Below are positions 53,913-64,000 of a DNA stretch of 64,000 bases, in pieces. The stretch lies in assembly GCF_900100385.1 (NCBI RefSeq), contig NZ_FNFC01000005.1, forward strand, positions 62,001 through 126,000, in the 5' to 3' direction. Position 1 is the stretch's first letter, and each line of letters begins with the position of its first letter. The position numbers and the translations under genes are program-made. The notes beneath the pieces were generated by a model, which ran no database searches, was not told the origin of the DNA, and saw only the letters and a list, made by a program, of their open reading frames with translations. The DNA comes from Halovenus aranensis (GTDB taxonomy: Archaea > Halobacteriota > Halobacteria > Halobacteriales > Haloarculaceae).

Positions 53913-54037
53913 GGTCGAGGTATCAATCAACAGTGTTGCCGCCACCAAATACGCTCGCTAATGCGCGTTTTAGCAACAGTCTCGACATACCGGCTGACAG
54001 ACAGAACAGTAATCAGCGCGGCACCCCTTCCCGGCAC

Positions 54038-54898
54038 ATGGACAGCGGGGACGCAGGGTTGTCGCCTGCGGCGGCGTTTGCCCTGCTCGGACACGAGCAT
54101 CGCGTCGACATCCTGCACGCGTTGCTTGGCGCAACCCAGGACGATGTGGCGACACCAGTCTCGTTTGCACGGCTATTCGACCGGACCAGTATCGGCGTTA
54201 GCTCGCAGTTTAGCTACCATCTCGACGAGCTGACTGGCCAGTTCGTCAGGGATACCGGCGACGGGTACGAACTTCGATATGCCGGGTGGAAAGTTGTGAC
54301 AGCGATTCTCGCTGGAACGTACAACGAGCGTGCCGGGTTCGGACCTACATCTATCGACGGGATCTGCCCGCGCTGTGACGCCGATGGTCTCGTGGCGACT
54401 TACGAGTCGGAGTGGCTCACTATCTCCTGTCGGGCCTGTGAGACTCGTCAGGTCAACTATCCGATTCCGCCCGGCGTGGTCCAATCCCGGTCGATTCCCG
54501 AGGTGCTCGATGCGTTCGACCGCTACGTCAGGTCACATATGACGCGCGCTCTGGGCGGTGTCTGTCCCGCCTGTCTCGGCGTCATGGAAATCGAGACCCC
54601 ACCGTCCGACAGCGACGGCTTGGTGGCAGGGGTTTGCAGACGCTGTGGGAACCAGCTATACCCACCGGTTGGGCTATTTCTGCGCGACCACGAGGCTGTC
54701 TCCTGGTTCCGCCACGAGTACGACAGCGACCGGCTTGGCGTGCCGTTCTGGGAACTCGACTGGTGTGTGACCGACGACACCGCGACTGTGACCGCGACCG
54801 ACCCCTGGCGCTGTCGACTCAACCTGACAGCAGGGGAGGCGACACTCGTGTTATCACTTGGCGAGGGGCTGACTGTCCGCTCGGCCACCGTCGAGTGA
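54038..54898 (+). CDS. Winged-helix regulator with zinc ribbons, paralogue of the gene at 17118
   Basis: 286 residues. The winged helix is at 8-75 (FALLGHEHRVDILHALLG, then SSQFSYHLDELTGQFV). CxxC pairs in ICPRCDADG with SCRACE and in VCPACLG with VCRRCGNQ follow in the same order as in the gene at 17118. The C-terminal half is an unrecognised domain ending in short beta strands. It is divergent from the MFS carrier, which it might control. Confidence 0.8.
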   Translation: MDSGDAGLSPAAAFALLGHEHRVDILHALLGATQDDVATPVSFARLFDRTSIGVSSQFSYHLDELTGQFVRDTGDGYELRYAGWKVVTAILAGTYNERAGFGPTSIDGICPRCDADGLVATYESEWLTISCRACETRQVNYPIPPGVVQSRSIPEVLDAFDRYVRSHMTRALGGVCPACLGVMEIETPPSDSDGLVAGVCRRCGNQLYPPVGLFLRDHEAVSWFRHEYDSDRLGVPFWELDWCVTDDTATVTATDPWRCRLNLTAGEATLVLSLGEGLTVRSATVE

Positions 54899-55531: not shown

Positions 55532-55606
55532 GGGTTGGTGGTCTAGCCCGGTTATGACGGCTCCTTCACACGGAGCAGGCCGGCGGTTCGAATCCGCCCC
55601 AACCCA
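55532..55606 (+). tRNA. tRNA-Val (anticodon CAC)
   Basis: A full cloverleaf: acceptor GGGTTGG/CCAACCC, anticodon stem GCTCC/GGAGC with loop TTCACAC (anticodon CAC), T arm GGCGG-TTCGAAT-CCGCC and discriminator A. The 3' CCA is not encoded. The D arm is somewhat irregular but within archaeal range. Confidence 0.95.
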
Positions 55607-55646: not shown

Positions 55647-55727
55647 GGGTTGGAAGGATTCGTCCCAGGAAAGGCGCGCGCAGCGCAGCGAGCACGTCTT
55701 TTCGAGGTTCAATTCCGCCCCAACCCA
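55647..55727 (+). pseudogene. tRNA-Val-like relic
   Basis: An 81-base segment 40 bases after tRNA-Val begins with GGGTTGG and ends with CCAACCC plus A, identical to both acceptor arms of the tRNA. It has a T-loop-like GGTTCAATTCC, but no D arm or anticodon arm that I can fold. The 14-base TCCGCCCCAACCCA at 55714-55727 repeats the tRNA 3' end at 55593-55606. This could be a decayed duplicate or the attachment-site scar of an integrated element. Confidence 0.55.
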
Positions 55728-55975: not shown

Positions 55976-58900
55976 ATGTCCACGGACCCCCTCCGGGGCG
56001 ACGTAGTGGTATCCGTTTTCGAAGCCGGTGCAGAGTCGTTCGAGCCACAGACGACAGCAGCGATTGCCGAGACACTCGACGAGCCCAGAGAACGGGTGGC
56101 CGACGTTCTGGCGACACTCGCCGAGCGCGGAGAGGTAGAGAGCAAGTCGGTCGGTGAAACCCAAATATGGTGGTTAGCACAGCCCTCGGAGAGGCGAACG
56201 GCAACTGGAGACCTCCAGCCAGAGCAGCGGCGGCGGCTTGACCTCTTCGAGAATATCCAAGACGTTGCCAACGTAGGAGCCTGGGAGTACGACATCGAAG
56301 CCGACGAGGGCTGGGGAACCGACGAGGTGTTGCGGATTCACGGAGTAGACTCCGACGCGCACGTGTCACCAGCAGAGAGCATCGAGTTCTACCATCCGGA
56401 CGACCGGCCGGTCATCAGAGAAGCATTCGAACGCGCAGTCGAAGACCGCGAACCATACGACCTGGAGTTGCGCCTCATCGGCGCCGACGGAATCCACCGC
56501 TGGGTCCGGACACGTGGGCAGCCACAGTTCGAAGACGGCGAGGCAGTCCGCGTTCACGGGACCATCCAAGATATCACGGACCGAAAAGACCGAGAGCAGG
56601 AGCGCCAGCGGAAGGAAGCATTTCTCAGTAATATACAGGAGATTGCACATATCGGCGGATGGGAGGTCAGTCTGGGCTCTGAAACACTGCAGTGGACCGA
56701 GGAACTCTATCATATTCACGGCGTTGGACCCGACTACGAACCGACAATCGAGGAAGCTATCGCGTTCTATCATCCAGACGACCGGGAGACGGTACGGGAC
56801 TCGTGGGACCGATTGCTCTCGGACGGAGAGCAGTTCGACTTAGAGTTGCGTATCGTCAGAGCCGACGGGGAGGTCCGCTGGGTGCGGACGATGGGTGACA
56901 CGTGGCTCGACGAGAGCGGTGAGATGGTTGGCGCTCGCGGCGTATTTCAAGATATTACCGACCGGAAGCAACGCGACCAGGAACTCGAAACAGAGCGGCG
57001 GTTCATCCAGCAGGCACTCGATGCACTCGATGATATCTTCTACGTGTTAGATACTGACGGGACGCTCAGACGGTGGAACGAGCAGGCCCACGAAGCGCTC
57101 GCGTATACGGAATCGGATTTCGCAGACGCAAACGCCGTCGATTTCTTTCCGGAGGACGAACACGAGACCGTTCTCGACGGCATAGAGACGGTACTCTTGG
57201 ACGGTGACGCCACTATCGAGGCAGACCTGCTCACCGCTGACGGTGAGCGTCGCCCCTACGAATACAAGGGGACGCGCCTGACCGATAGGGACGGGAACAC
57301 GACTGGAATCGTCGGTATCGGTCGTGATGTGACTGCGCGGCTAGAACGCGAACGCCGGTTTCGGGCGCTCGTCGAAGGGTCAAACGATATCATCTCTGTC
57401 GTCGACACCGAGGGAGTCTACCGGTACCAGAGCCCGTCCGTCGAACGTATCCTGGGATACGACCCAGAGGAGAGGGTCGGTCACGCGGTCGTCGAGTACA
57501 TCCATCCAGACGACCGCGAAACAGTCAGCGACCGGTTCGAGAAGTGGCAGACGGACTCGTCTGTTGATGGGACAATCACGTACCGGATTCGACATGCCGA
57601 CGGCTCGTGGCGCTGGATGGAGGCCCGCGGTAACCAGCAACTCGACAATCCGGCAGTCGAGGGGTACGTCATCAACAGCCGCGATGTCACCGAACGGAAA
57701 CGGCGAGACCGGGAACTTCGACTGCGGAGTCGGGTGCTCGAAGAGGCACCAGTCGGCATCTCCATCACGGACCACTCACAGGCCGACAACCCTCTCGTCT
57801 ATGTAAACCAGCAGTTTGTAGACCTGACCGGCTACTCACGGGAGGAGGCAACCGGTCGCAACTGTCGTTTCCTGCAAGGCGAGGCAACCGAGCCGGGTCC
57901 TGTGGCCGAGATACGGCAGGGTATCGACGACGACAGCGCAGTCTCGGTCGAACTCCGGAACTACCGGAACGACGGAACAGAATTCTGGAATCACCTCGAC
58001 GTTGCGCCGGTCGAAGACGAGTCGGGAGTCGTCGGTAACTACGTCGGCTTCCAGCGAGACGTGACCGCGCGGAAAGAGCGAGAACGCGCGCTCGAAAAAC
58101 GCGAGCGTATTCTGCGCGAACTCCACACGGCGACACGCGAGTTCTATCCACCGGCGTCGGAGACGGAAATCGCCGAGTTCCTAGTCGAGTTCGTCGAGAC
58201 TGGCTTCGAGTTCGAGTACGTCAGCGTCAAGCAATTCGACGAGCAAGCGGGTGTCCTGCAGCCGACTGCACGGTCCTCTGCCGTCGACGGAAGGCGTGTG
58301 GTGGGTCCTGTCGAACCCGGCACCAACCCAATCTGGGAGGTGTACCGACACGGCACCTCCCGGCTGTTCGACGGCGACACGCTCACGGAGTTCGACAGTC
58401 TCGACACTCTCACTAACCAGATGCTGGTCGTCCCAATCGGTGATTTCGGTGTGTTAGTGACGTTTACGACGGGAGACAGCGAGTTCGACGACGTCGACAC
58501 AGACCTCATCGAAGTCGTTGCGACGAACGCGGAATCGGCCTTCCAACGACTCCGGAGCGACAGCGTCCGGACCGAACTCGTAGACGAACTCTCGACCCAG
58601 CAGACCAGAGTCACCGAACTGCGAAGCGTCATCGCCGCGATTCAATCGATTCAGCGGCGTCTTGCCGGGAGCGAGAGCCGTGACGCCCTCGAAGCCGGCG
58701 TCTGTGAGGAACTGTGCGAGACGGACCCCGTCGATTTTGTCTGGGTCGGTCGACCGCTGAGTGACGACACGAACCTCAAACCTACCGCATGGGCGGGTGA
58801 CGGGAGCGCCTATCTGGATTCGGTCGAGACCGGAACGGCGGACGAATTAGTCCCCGCACAGCGTGCAGCGGCCGGCCGGAGCGCCTACTGTCACAACAAT

Positions 58901-59812
58901 ATCTCGTCACTCGTCGTCGAGGAGTGCTGGGCGAAAGAAGCACTCTCTGCTGGGTTCCAGTCGGTAGTGAGCGTTCCGCTCGTCTACGACGACGTGCTCT
59001 ATGGCGTTCTGACAGCTCACTCACAAGAGAACGATGCGTTCAATCAGATGTACGAGCATCTGTTCGCCGACGTCGCGTCTCTCCTCGTGAACTACAGCCG
59101 CCTCCTCGAACACCGATTTGACGCCTCACCACAGGAATTCACCGAACTCGAGTTCGAGTTATCCGACCCGACGTACCCGTTGCAGCGACTCGCCGGCAAC
59201 ACAGAGAGCAAGATTCGTTTCGACACTGTCGCGGAGAACATGACAGACGAAATCCGTGTCATCGGGACGGTACTCGACGGAAGCCCCGAACAGGTGTGTG
59301 CCGCCGTCTCGTCGGTGACCAGTATTCTCGACGCACAGCTGTTCGGTGACAACGACCAGATTTCCCTGACGATACAGAAGCCGTTTCTCGCTTCGGTCGT
59401 CGGAAAGCACAGAGGCAAGCTTATTCATGCAGTGTCAGACGAGTCGGAGACCCGATTTCAGGTCCACTTACCGAAAACCACGTCCAAACGTCCGTTACTC
59501 GACTCGTTATCGTCTCGGTACCGGGAGATAGAACCGGTCGCACACCGACAAATCGATACCTCCCGGCTTTCCGGAATGCAACAGGTCGCCTCCATTCTGA
59601 CCGACCGGCAGTACGAGATTCTCAACGCCGCCTACCACGGAGGCTACTACGAGACGCCACGACAGGTCACGGGCGAGGACCTCGCCGAAAGTTTCGACAT
59701 CTCGAGTCCCGCCATCTACAACCACCTGCAGTCTGCACACCGGAAATTACTCGAAACCGTCATGCGGACGGCCTCCGATATCAGTGATGAAAGGGAGGGG
59801 TTAGACAGTTAA
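55976..59812 (+). CDS. Multi-PAS/LOV sensor with GAF and bacterio-opsin-activator type HTH
   Basis: 1278 residues, soluble. A winged-helix-like N-terminus (1-70) is followed by four PAS-PAC units (about 85-580) and a fifth PAS (585-700) with the LOV signature GRNCRFLQG; its Cys630 is the flavin-adduct position. Partner Asn residues in NYRNDGTEFWN and Gln in GFQRDVT complete a canonical LOV site. GAF-like regions lie at about 715-870 and 885-1045. The C-terminal HTH (LTDRQYEILNAAYHGGYYET, about 1205-1262) is of the type in Bat regulators of bacteriorhodopsin. An opsin gene lies 3.5 kb away. Light-responsive transcription control is inferred. Confidence 0.9.
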   Translation: MSTDPLRGDVVVSVFEAGAESFEPQTTAAIAETLDEPRERVADVLATLAERGEVESKSVGETQIWWLAQPSERRTATGDLQPEQRRRLDLFENIQDVANVGAWEYDIEADEGWGTDEVLRIHGVDSDAHVSPAESIEFYHPDDRPVIREAFERAVEDREPYDLELRLIGADGIHRWVRTRGQPQFEDGEAVRVHGTIQDITDRKDREQERQRKEAFLSNIQEIAHIGGWEVSLGSETLQWTEELYHIHGVGPDYEPTIEEAIAFYHPDDRETVRDSWDRLLSDGEQFDLELRIVRADGEVRWVRTMGDTWLDESGEMVGARGVFQDITDRKQRDQELETERRFIQQALDALDDIFYVLDTDGTLRRWNEQAHEALAYTESDFADANAVDFFPEDEHETVLDGIETVLLDGDATIEADLLTADGERRPYEYKGTRLTDRDGNTTGIVGIGRDVTARLERERRFRALVEGSNDIISVVDTEGVYRYQSPSVERILGYDPEERVGHAVVEYIHPDDRETVSDRFEKWQTDSSVDGTITYRIRHADGSWRWMEARGNQQLDNPAVEGYVINSRDVTERKRRDRELRLRSRVLEEAPVGISITDHSQADNPLVYVNQQFVDLTGYSREEATGRNCRFLQGEATEPGPVAEIRQGIDDDSAVSVELRNYRNDGTEFWNHLDVAPVEDESGVVGNYVGFQRDVTARKERERALEKRERILRELHTATREFYPPASETEIAEFLVEFVETGFEFEYVSVKQFDEQAGVLQPTARSSAVDGRRVVGPVEPGTNPIWEVYRHGTSRLFDGDTLTEFDSLDTLTNQMLVVPIGDFGVLVTFTTGDSEFDDVDTDLIEVVATNAESAFQRLRSDSVRTELVDELSTQQTRVTELRSVIAAIQSIQRRLAGSESRDALEAGVCEELCETDPVDFVWVGRPLSDDTNLKPTAWAGDGSAYLDSVETGTADELVPAQRAAAGRSAYCHNNISSLVVEECWAKEALSAGFQSVVSVPLVYDDVLYGVLTAHSQENDAFNQMYEHLFADVASLLVNYSRLLEHRFDASPQEFTELEFELSDPTYPLQRLAGNTESKIRFDTVAENMTDEIRVIGTVLDGSPEQVCAAVSSVTSILDAQLFGDNDQISLTIQKPFLASVVGKHRGKLIHAVSDESETRFQVHLPKTTSKRPLLDSLSSRYREIEPVAHRQIDTSRLSGMQQVASILTDRQYEILNAAYHGGYYETPRQVTGEDLAESFDISSPAIYNHLQSAHRKLLETVMRTASDISDEREGLDS

Positions 59813-59882
59813 CCAAGGCAGTCCTGCCACTCTTTTTTGTTTATCGTTCTATTTGATTGATATTCCGAAGCAGTACTAGTGT

Positions 59883-62246
59883 ATGCGGCTCGCACAGACA
59901 CTCAACATCGACAGCCTGAATCTCCGGCCGAAGCTGATTGCATCGTTTCTGGTCGTCGCGTTGCTAGTCGCCGGGACGGGTGCGCTGGGTTACCAGAGCC
60001 TGAACACGCTGGATAAGGAAGCGCACGCAATCGCTCAAGAAGGAGAGAACGTCGACCACACGATGGAGATGGTCGTCGCAATCGAACAACAACAGGTCGC
60101 AGTGCAGGCCGCCCAGCTCGACCACCCAGGAGCGAGCGAAGACTACGCCGCCGCGGAGGACCACTTCGACGAACAGGCACGGGCGATGAGTCTCAGCGGC
60201 GACGAGCAGGCACAGTTCGAAACGCTCCGCGAGACTCACGAGGAGTACAACGACCTCGGGAGCGAGTACTTCGAGGCCAGTGAAGCGGGTGACAAGGAAC
60301 TCACAGCACAGAAGCTAGCCGAGATGAATACCCTGCGAACCGAAATGGAAGAGCAGGCACACACGCTCGAAGAAATGATGCAAGACGAGATGGCGGCCCA
60401 GGTAGCGGCCGCCGATAGCGCGACCCAGACGACACAGATGGAGCTGGTGGCGCTCACCGTCGTTGCTTTCGTCGTTGCTATCGGCATCGGCGCTCTGTTG
60501 AACCGCCACATCACGCCACCGCTCGAACAGCTTTCTGCATCTGCCAGAGCGCTCAGTGAGGGTGACCTCGACACCGAGATGGACGACCACGAGATGGACG
60601 ACGAAATCGGCCGCATGGTCGATTCGTTCACCGAGATGCAGCAGAACCTGCGGGGTGTCTTCGGCGACCTGCATACGGTCAGCAGAAACCTCGAAACCGG
60701 CACCCTGCAACAGGACATCGACACCGACTACCCCGGTCGATACGGCAAGATAATGCAGCGTCTCGACGACGGAACCGACCAGCTCACGGGCAGTTTCGAC
60801 GAAATCGAAGGCGCGAGCCAGTCGTTACGAGAGGGTCGTCTCGACCGCACAATCGACACGGGCCGTCCCGGGCAGTACGGCGAGGTGCTTACCGATATGC
60901 AGCGAGGAACCGACAGACTGTCCGACAGCTTCGGACAGATATCGACGGCCAGCAACGACCTCAAACGCGGCCGCCTCAACCAAGATATCGAGACGGGGTA
61001 TCCCGGCGAGTACGGCCGCGTACTCGACGACCTCTCCGAAGGCGTCAGCCAGCTGCGTGCAAGCGTCAGTAGCGTCCAGGCCATCGCCGACGACGTGGCG
61101 GCTTCGAGCCAGCAGGTATCCGCCAGTGCCGAGGAGATAGAAAACGCAAGCGAGGACGTTTCGGAGTCGATACAGGAGATATCGACCGGGACCGACACCC
61201 AAAGCGAGAACATAGAGACGGTCGCCGACGAGATGAACCAGCTGTCTGCGACCGTCGAGGAGATAGCCTCCTCTGCGGAGGAGGTCTCTGCAACAGCAAC
61301 GACAGCGGTTGAGCGCGGTGAACAGGGCAGAGCTCACGCTGCTGAGGCGACGGACGAAATTGCGGCCATCGAATCACAGGCCGAAGCGGCATCCACGCAG
61401 GTACGGACGCTCGAACGAGAGATGGAGAAAGTGAGCGAGGTAGTAGATATGATTGCCGATATCGCCGAGCAGACAAACATGCTCGCGCTGAACGCCTCGA
61501 TAGAGGCCGCCAGAGCCGGCGAGGCGGGTGACGGGTTCGGCGTCGTCGCCGAGGAAATCAAACAGCTCGCCGAGGAGACCAGTGATGCGACGATACAAAT
61601 CGAGAACCGCATCGAGGAGATACAGGCGACGACCGGCGAAACAGTCGGTGACATCGAAGCGATGAGTGAACGCGTCCGGACAGGCACAGACACTGTCGAG
61701 GACGCAGTCGAGATGTTCGATGAAATTGCAGAGGCAATCCGGGAGGCCGAACGCGGTATCCAGGAGATAAGCGAGGCAACCGACGACCAGGCAGCGTCCG
61801 CCGAGGAAGTCGTTTCGATGGTCGACGAGGTGTCGAGCATAAGCCAGCAGACCGCAGCCGAAGCGACGAACGTGTCTGCGGCGTCCGAGGAACAGACCTC
61901 GTCCCTGTCAGCAGCGGCGACCAACATACAGCAGCTCTCACAGCTCGCCGAAGAACTCCACGACAGCGTAGCCGACTTCGAGGTCGAAGGCGACGGAACA
62001 CGGCCGACGCCCGAACCGGCCGACGTAGACAACACCGCCGACCGAACAGACGTGAACGGGGCAGACAGCACTTCGGTGAACAGAGCAGACGCGAGCGAAC
62101 GGACGGAACAGCAGACGAGCGAGACCGCCGATACTGGCTCGGACATAACCGTACTTGAGCCGGGCACAGACCTCTCAGTCACCGATACGAACGGCGCTTC
62201 CGAGCAGTCTGATGACGACGGCAGTCGGCATATGGAGGCCGAATAA
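59883..62246 (+). CDS. Methyl-accepting transducer with repeated HAMP-like units
   Basis: 787 residues. TM1 is at about 20-38, then a four-helix-bundle-like sensor (40-180), TM2 at about 186-206 and HAMP from 208. Three 45-residue repeats follow (about 275-390), each with ID/ET-x-x-PG-x-YG. The signalling tip is [19 protein letters not shown]. The C-terminal 90 residues are a disordered acidic tail. It is 70 bases after the LOV regulator gene and reads towards the opsin gene. It is not next to a sensory rhodopsin, so its signal is unknown. Confidence 0.93.
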
Positions 62247-63346: not shown

Positions 63347-64000
63347 TTAGTCGGCTGCTGCGGCTTCGGGTTCAGTTGTCGCGGTGGCTGAACCGTCGAG
63401 GACGTTGTGACTGCGCAGCAGGATGATACCGAATCCGACCTTCGCGGTCACATCGAGTACCATGAATCCGGCAGTCTCTGCGTAGAGGTCAAGCAGACCC
63501 AGTCCTTCGGAGCCGACGAGCCACCAGACGGGGTAGGCGAACCATAGCACGACAATCATCCACCGCAGAGTGCTGAACGTGCTTTTGGTGTCCCCGGATA
63601 GCTGTGATACCTTGTCCGAAAGTCCACGGAACAGGTAAAACACCAGCACGAGGAAGAACGCGGTACTGACTGCCCACCAGAGGACTCGGTGCCCTTCGAC
63701 GGCGAGGCCGAGCGAGTCGACTGGTGCAATGGTCAGCGTAGCGACCAGACCGGTCAGAATCATCATCACGTCGAGTCCGACCAGCGTACTGATCGTGTTC
63801 CTGTCTGCGCCGGCGAGCAACGCCAGGTCATACAGCAACAGCGGCGTCGTCAGAATCCAGTCGGTGTACCGCGGCCAGTAGATTTTCAGCTCCTCTGTGC
63901 CTTCGATAAACGGTGCCAGGTCGATGACACCGAATCCCGTCGCCATCGCGAGGTAGTTCGTGAACGCGATGCCGGCGATGAACGTCGTGATGATGTAGAA
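63347..64000 (-). CDS. bop: Bacteriorhodopsin-like proton pump, C-terminal part
   Basis: The frame is open to the window edge; 217 residues are visible, covering helices B-G. The helix C region [20 protein letters not shown] keeps the Asp85 and Asp96 equivalents needed for proton release and uptake, plus the Arg82 equivalent. The retinal Lys is in DVTAKVGFG of helix [11 protein letters not shown] and [12 protein letters not shown] resemble cruxrhodopsins. A light-driven outward proton pump is therefore expected. The start lies outside the window. Confidence 0.95.

Follow-up and report, generated by a model that had tools for sequence, protein, structure and literature searches.

The window (the whole 64,000-nucleotide stretch of Halovenus aranensis DNA analysed here) encodes a predicted flavin-LOV transcription factor of the Bat type that is directly followed by the gene of a methyl-accepting chemotaxis transducer, and this pair recurs across related haloarchaea with a palindromic, operator-like site (GGTTA-N6-TAACC) before the transducer gene. 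The LOV residues, the regulator-transducer pairing, and the operator-like site with its co-occurrence with the regulator are established at the level of sequence, and the LOV fold by a predicted model. We propose that the regulator probably controls the downstream transducer via the palindrome, with blue light and other inputs tuning the expression of one chemoreceptor.

The regulator gene (positions 55976–59812, forward strand) encodes 1278 residues with five PAS units, two GAF domains, a BAT domain and an HTH_10 domain. The two Pfam models that together mark a Bat-type regulator both scored above their curated cut-offs: BAT (PF15915) over residues 1055–1196 (76.8 bits against 25.8) and HTH_10 (PF04967) over residues 1208–1260 (68.5 bits against 23.1). 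This agrees with the preliminary description of a Bat-type regulator with PAS and GAF domains. Five S-box stretches were found, the LOV domain being the fifth PAS unit, and a search for transmembrane segments returned none in the 1278 residues. A LOV domain, GAF domains and a C-terminal HTH thus occur in a single haloarchaeal protein, the combination that characterises the archaeal LOV-HTH class (PMC4844311). The regulator is best explained as a transcription factor of the cytoplasm that combines several sensors, among them a predicted blue-light (LOV-flavin) module.

Two other features of this part of the window are recorded here in their own right. A tRNA-Val(CAC) gene occupies 55532–55606, and its last 22 nucleotides recur (91%) at 55706–55727, 121 bp downstream; the duplication, just upstream of the LOV-Bat gene, is attachment-site-like and suggests a past integration. 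At 53933–54898, upstream of a cobalamin adenosyltransferase gene, lies a protein with two uncharacterised domains, DUF7347 and DUF7351.

The LOV domain, with flanking N-cap and J-alpha-like helices, spans residues 582–716 (57719–58123, forward strand). Its motif GRNCRFLQG (residues 627–635; 57854–57880, forward strand) contains the adduct-forming Cys630 (codon 57863–57865), and the flavin contacts lie in NYRNDGTEFWN (N662 and N672) and GFQRDVT (Q693), together with R647; these four residues align with the YtvA contacts N94, N104 and Q123 and its second Arg. All nine LOV-defining residues listed by Yee et al. (PMC4682037) are present in addition to the adduct Cys, the Cys and the flavin contacts are invariant across nine aligned archaeal LOV domains, and, of the 15 PAS loci examined in the genome to which the window belongs, this one alone has the Cys motif. 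The closest solved structure is the YtvA LOV domain (2pr5, E = 7e-33), with every flavin contact aligned, and the NCBIfam YtvA and LOV-histidine-kinase models both match strongly (YtvA_fam, 156.7 bits over residues 585–718); this match covers the LOV part only and stays below the cut-off of 250 bits for full-length membership of the YtvA family (NF052652). The AlphaFold2 model takes the LOV fold (pLDDT 87.9), and Foldseek superposes it on the LOV crystal structure 9vf7_A with a TM score of 0.95 and an rmsd of 1.1 Å. The YtvA match and the superposition on LOV crystal structures place the similarity far above chance. Its residues and its model thus mark this PAS unit, the fifth, as a canonical LOV domain, and from these we infer flavin binding and Cys-adduct photochemistry.

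Most of what the preliminary description had read from this region therefore stands: the motif with Cys630 in the fifth PAS unit, its residue numbering, and the Asn and Gln contacts. It had located the LOV at 57720–58080, which is the right place with a start one base off, the reading frame beginning at 57719. Its prediction of true flavin photochemistry is upheld as far as a genuine LOV domain with predicted flavin binding and a predicted Cys adduct is concerned; the blue-light control of the neighbouring bacteriorhodopsin gene that it coupled to this is not supported, as described below.

We then compared the regulator and its neighbours across species, defining the subfamily by the C-terminal half of the protein (GAF-GAF-BAT-HTH_10). 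With this half, about ten genomes in the family were found at 45–61% identity, and other Bat proteins drop to about 30%; named genomes, scanned in the same way, contributed further members from Halorientalis, Haloarcula rara, Halapricum, Salinibaculum, Halobellus, Halonotius and Halohasta, among others. The comparison set comprised 16 distinct species, namely that of the window, eleven named relatives (L081–L091), G003, G011, G046 and G255. In all 16, from two families, an orthologous methyl-accepting chemotaxis transducer lies directly downstream of the regulator on the same strand. The window's transducer (59883–62246, forward strand) has 787 residues, with two transmembrane segments, an extracellular helical bundle, HAMP and MCPsignal domains; its orthologues are 35–66% identical to it over the N-terminal 250 residues, and the distance from regulator stop to transducer ATG is mostly 69–188 bp, reaching 660 bp in Haloarcula rara. 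The count leaves out G071, a more distant member whose transducer, 216 bp downstream, is just 34% identical. The other flanking genes of the window that were tested had no counterpart in the pair neighbourhoods of the ten relatives compared. These comparisons point to the transducer as the conserved partner of the regulator and its putative target. In Salinibaculum KK48 (L087:15047-19484), a second LOV protein (727 residues, GRNCRFLQG) and a shorter MCP-like gene adjoin the pair.

A Cys-LOV is present in 11 of the 16 regulators, at varying positions among the PAS units, and each of the 11 has the adduct Cys. It is absent from the regulators of Halorientalis LUM.68, H. pallida, Halobellus Atlit-31R, G046 and G255, which nevertheless keep the pairing, four of the five together with the operator. 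The pair can therefore do without light sensing, and light is to be seen as one of its optional inputs. The same five regulators are consistent with a reading in which the regulator controls the transducer while its LOV domain acts as a redox or flavin sensor, or is not photoactive in vivo, and the other PAS and GAF domains carry the signal. A Cys-less LOV of a Bat protein responds to flavin reduction (PMC4682037), and Bat of Halobacterium salinarum induces bop at low oxygen (PMC2253796). Against this stand the invariance of the adduct Cys, both in the nine aligned LOV domains and in all LOV-bearing members, and the canonical LOV of a haloarchaeal kinase, whose photocycle persists at 3 M salt (PMC12202551). 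We consider this reading unlikely.

Control of the adjacent bacteriorhodopsin gene by blue light through the LOV-Bat protein, as the preliminary description had suggested, appears improbable. The observation behind that suggestion is correct: a bacteriorhodopsin/cruxrhodopsin-type opsin of 275 residues (63347–64000, reverse strand, extending past the window end) has its 3' end 3.5 kb from the regulator stop, and Bat of H. salinarum does regulate bop (PMC2253796). However, the opsin is convergent with the regulator, on the opposite strand, with the transducer gene between them and the opsin promoter about 4.4 kb away. The linkage is not conserved: of the 15 other species, 14 have no opsin in the examined sequence around the regulator, which extended to as much as about 10 kb on either side and was shorter where a contig ended. 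The transducer is the invariant neighbour. The sole other species with a nearby opsin is Halorientalis LUM.68, where the orthologue and an opsin of another type, 30% identical, are about 3.5 kb apart. In 12 carrier genomes, the positions of all opsins agree with this lack of linkage; the conserved linkage to bop that marks Bat sensu stricto is not seen in this subfamily. The palindrome, the one regulator-associated DNA motif that was found, also has no copy close to the opsin, not even when one mismatch is tolerated. We therefore reject opsin control as the main function. The opsin, which lies outside the conserved unit, is best explained as an incidental neighbour of the regulator-transducer pair, and might possibly serve as a second target via a different or weaker site.

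The window's genome contains three further opsins, their types judged by eye from motifs. Past the window end, on contig C21 (L005:12525-19964), the bacteriorhodopsin gene is accompanied by genes for an M50/CBS membrane protease, a TrmB-like regulator, an RPE65-type carotenoid oxygenase and a DNA photolyase; this light-related cluster was not found in the pair loci of the ten relatives.

Comparison of the regulator-transducer intergenic regions revealed the candidate operator. In the window it is GGTTAGACAGTTAACC (59799–59814; palindromic, with no strand assigned), 84 bp before the transducer ATG and overlapping the regulator stop codon. In many relatives the first site is followed, about 33 bp further downstream, by a weaker, TAAC-N4-TANC-like copy; in the window this copy is degenerate, the corresponding weak second site or TATA-like stretch being GTTTATCGTTCTATTT (59839–59854, forward strand), about 44 bp before the transducer ATG. 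At least 9 of the 10 core positions of the palindrome are matched at 13 of the 16 paired loci, a score reached by 4 of 4800 shuffled sequences when the same interval is scanned; sequence kinship inflates these operator counts, and the site is nevertheless kept across two families while the surrounding sequence is not. Two loci, LUM.21 and Halohasta salina, have no good upstream site, and G046 scores just 8/10. Among the LOV-less members, Atlit-31R, H. pallida, LUM.68 and G255 retain it.

The position of the site is tied to the transducer. It lies at −83 to −85 relative to the transducer ATG in 11 of the 13 loci and at −95 or −97 in the other 2, and in Haloarcula rara it is at −83 although the regulator stop is 660 bp from the ATG, which puts the site 577 bp past the stop. 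This constant distance to the transducer ATG, and not to the regulator stop, indicates that the palindrome belongs to the transducer promoter. It also makes it very improbable that the palindrome serves to terminate transcription of the regulator gene or to form a hairpin in its mRNA, functions that an inverted repeat near the regulator stop in most genomes might otherwise suggest; a terminator-like site with a T tract was looked for and none was detected, and the palindrome is missing upstream of homologous transducers without the regulator. Conservation merely for coding GLDS at the regulator C-terminus was discarded as an explanation, the site being non-coding in most relatives.

We also examined the occurrence of the site genome-wide. 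The 3.29-Mb genome that includes the window has one exact palindrome, that at 59799–59814. Of 11 genomes tested, 8 have an exact copy at the transducer promoter, which is the genome's sole copy in 7 of those 8; the remaining 3 have imperfect sites there, with the exact form elsewhere or absent. Since about one exact copy per genome is expected by chance, location and not copy number is informative. With one mismatch allowed, the window's genome has 15 sites, the same number as the reversed-pattern control; with one exact copy and no such excess, a shared regulon motif was rejected for this genome. A class-wide search detected a homologue of the transducer N-terminal part in 40 of 391 genomes. 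Among the 30 transducer loci listed, all 7 with a paired regulator upstream carry the site (one has the second copy only), and it is present in 0 of the 23 homologues without a paired regulator, none of which scores above 7/10 within 250 bp; one of these 23 has a distant, 25%-identical Bat upstream.

On this co-occurrence, the regulator itself is the probable binder of the palindrome, and taxis may be affected in turn. A different factor could bind the palindrome, and regulator and transducer could be co-transcribed, which would make the site an internal promoter element. A one-regulator, one-target pair appears to be the most economical reading.

Taxis machinery exists in the window's genome, which encodes CheW and about 26 transducers. 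The extracellular part of the regulator's partner is predicted as a helical bundle, and a structure search pointed to a generic helical-bundle sensor fold, returning NarQ-like and MCP ligand-binding domains and no match with E below 0.001. A partnership of this transducer with the neighbouring opsin was considered unlikely: the opsin is of the bacteriorhodopsin/cruxrhodopsin type and convergent, and two other opsins of the genome (C53 and C22) have transducer genes of their own within about 0.3 kb. The latter arrangements, at G000:C53:63410-64770 and G000:C22:192220-193562, are as expected of sensory rhodopsin/Htr pairs.

In the circuit that we propose, blue light would drive formation of the Cys630-flavin C4a adduct in the LOV domain, and the resulting change would travel along the LOV C-terminal helix into the GAF-GAF-BAT-HTH_10 part. 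This would alter how a regulator dimer binds GGTTA-N6-TAACC, located 84 bp before the start of the transducer gene, and in the relatives also how it binds the weaker copy, which follows 33 bp or about three helical turns further on and overlaps the likely core promoter. Transcription of the transducer would then follow blue light, integrated with the other PAS and GAF inputs. There is about an even chance that a flavin-LOV factor of this kind sets the amount of a single chemoreceptor by blue light, as a slow, transcriptional, non-rhodopsin input to taxis beside the fast sensory rhodopsins.

The protein class itself is already known, LOV-HTH proteins having been catalogued in 2014 by Losi and Gaertner (PMC4844311). 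Their survey lists 167 archaeal LOV proteins, about 30% of the halobacterial ones carrying an HTH; it states that none of the haloarchaeal LOV-HTH proteins had been studied, and describes the same (RR/GAF/PAS)+LOV+nPAS+kGAF+HTH architecture with the canonical Cys. Relative to the passages of the survey considered, a target, a conserved partner and a candidate operator are proposed only here. Among open-licence full texts, we found no assigned target for haloarchaeal LOV-HTH proteins and no paper tying them to a chemotaxis transducer or to the palindrome.

Bat of H. salinarum shares PAS and GAF domains and the HTH C-terminus with the regulator, whereas it lacks the reactive Cys according to the same survey (PMC4844311) and has bop and brp as its targets (PMC2253796), in contrast to a subfamily paired with a chemotaxis transducer and not with bop. 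Among regulators with an HTH_10 domain, DmsR and NarO have respiration genes as their targets (PMC1447603, PMC11218638), so a Bat-type protein does not imply opsin control. BAT-LOV* of Halorubrum hochstenium (Yee et al., PMC4682037) likewise has a LOV-like domain inside a Bat-type HTH protein, but has Pro in place of the adduct Cys; it is photoreduced poorly and responds to flavin reduction. In ALovD-1 of Halonotius (PMC12202551), a haloarchaeal LOV that is likewise canonical, and is photoactive at 3 M salt, belongs to a histidine kinase, whereas that of the regulator is linked to a DNA-binding domain. Blue-light LOV photochemistry, predicted for the regulator, is found in YtvA and EL222; YtvA provides the closest LOV sequence but differs in output, the regulator's LOV being one of five PAS units before GAF-GAF-BAT-HTH_10. 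EL222, a bacterial LOV-controlled DNA-binding protein, consists of a small LOV plus an HTH of another family.

With a conserved partner and a compact candidate operator that is unique in the window's genome, what was an orphan class of predicted photoreceptors becomes a light-to-gene circuit that can be tested. The pair could likewise serve as a transcription module that is controlled by light, tolerates salt and has a defined candidate operator. If the proposal is true, the haloarchaea, the textbook case of rhodopsin phototaxis, would also feed light into taxis via a flavin photoreceptor that acts on transcription.
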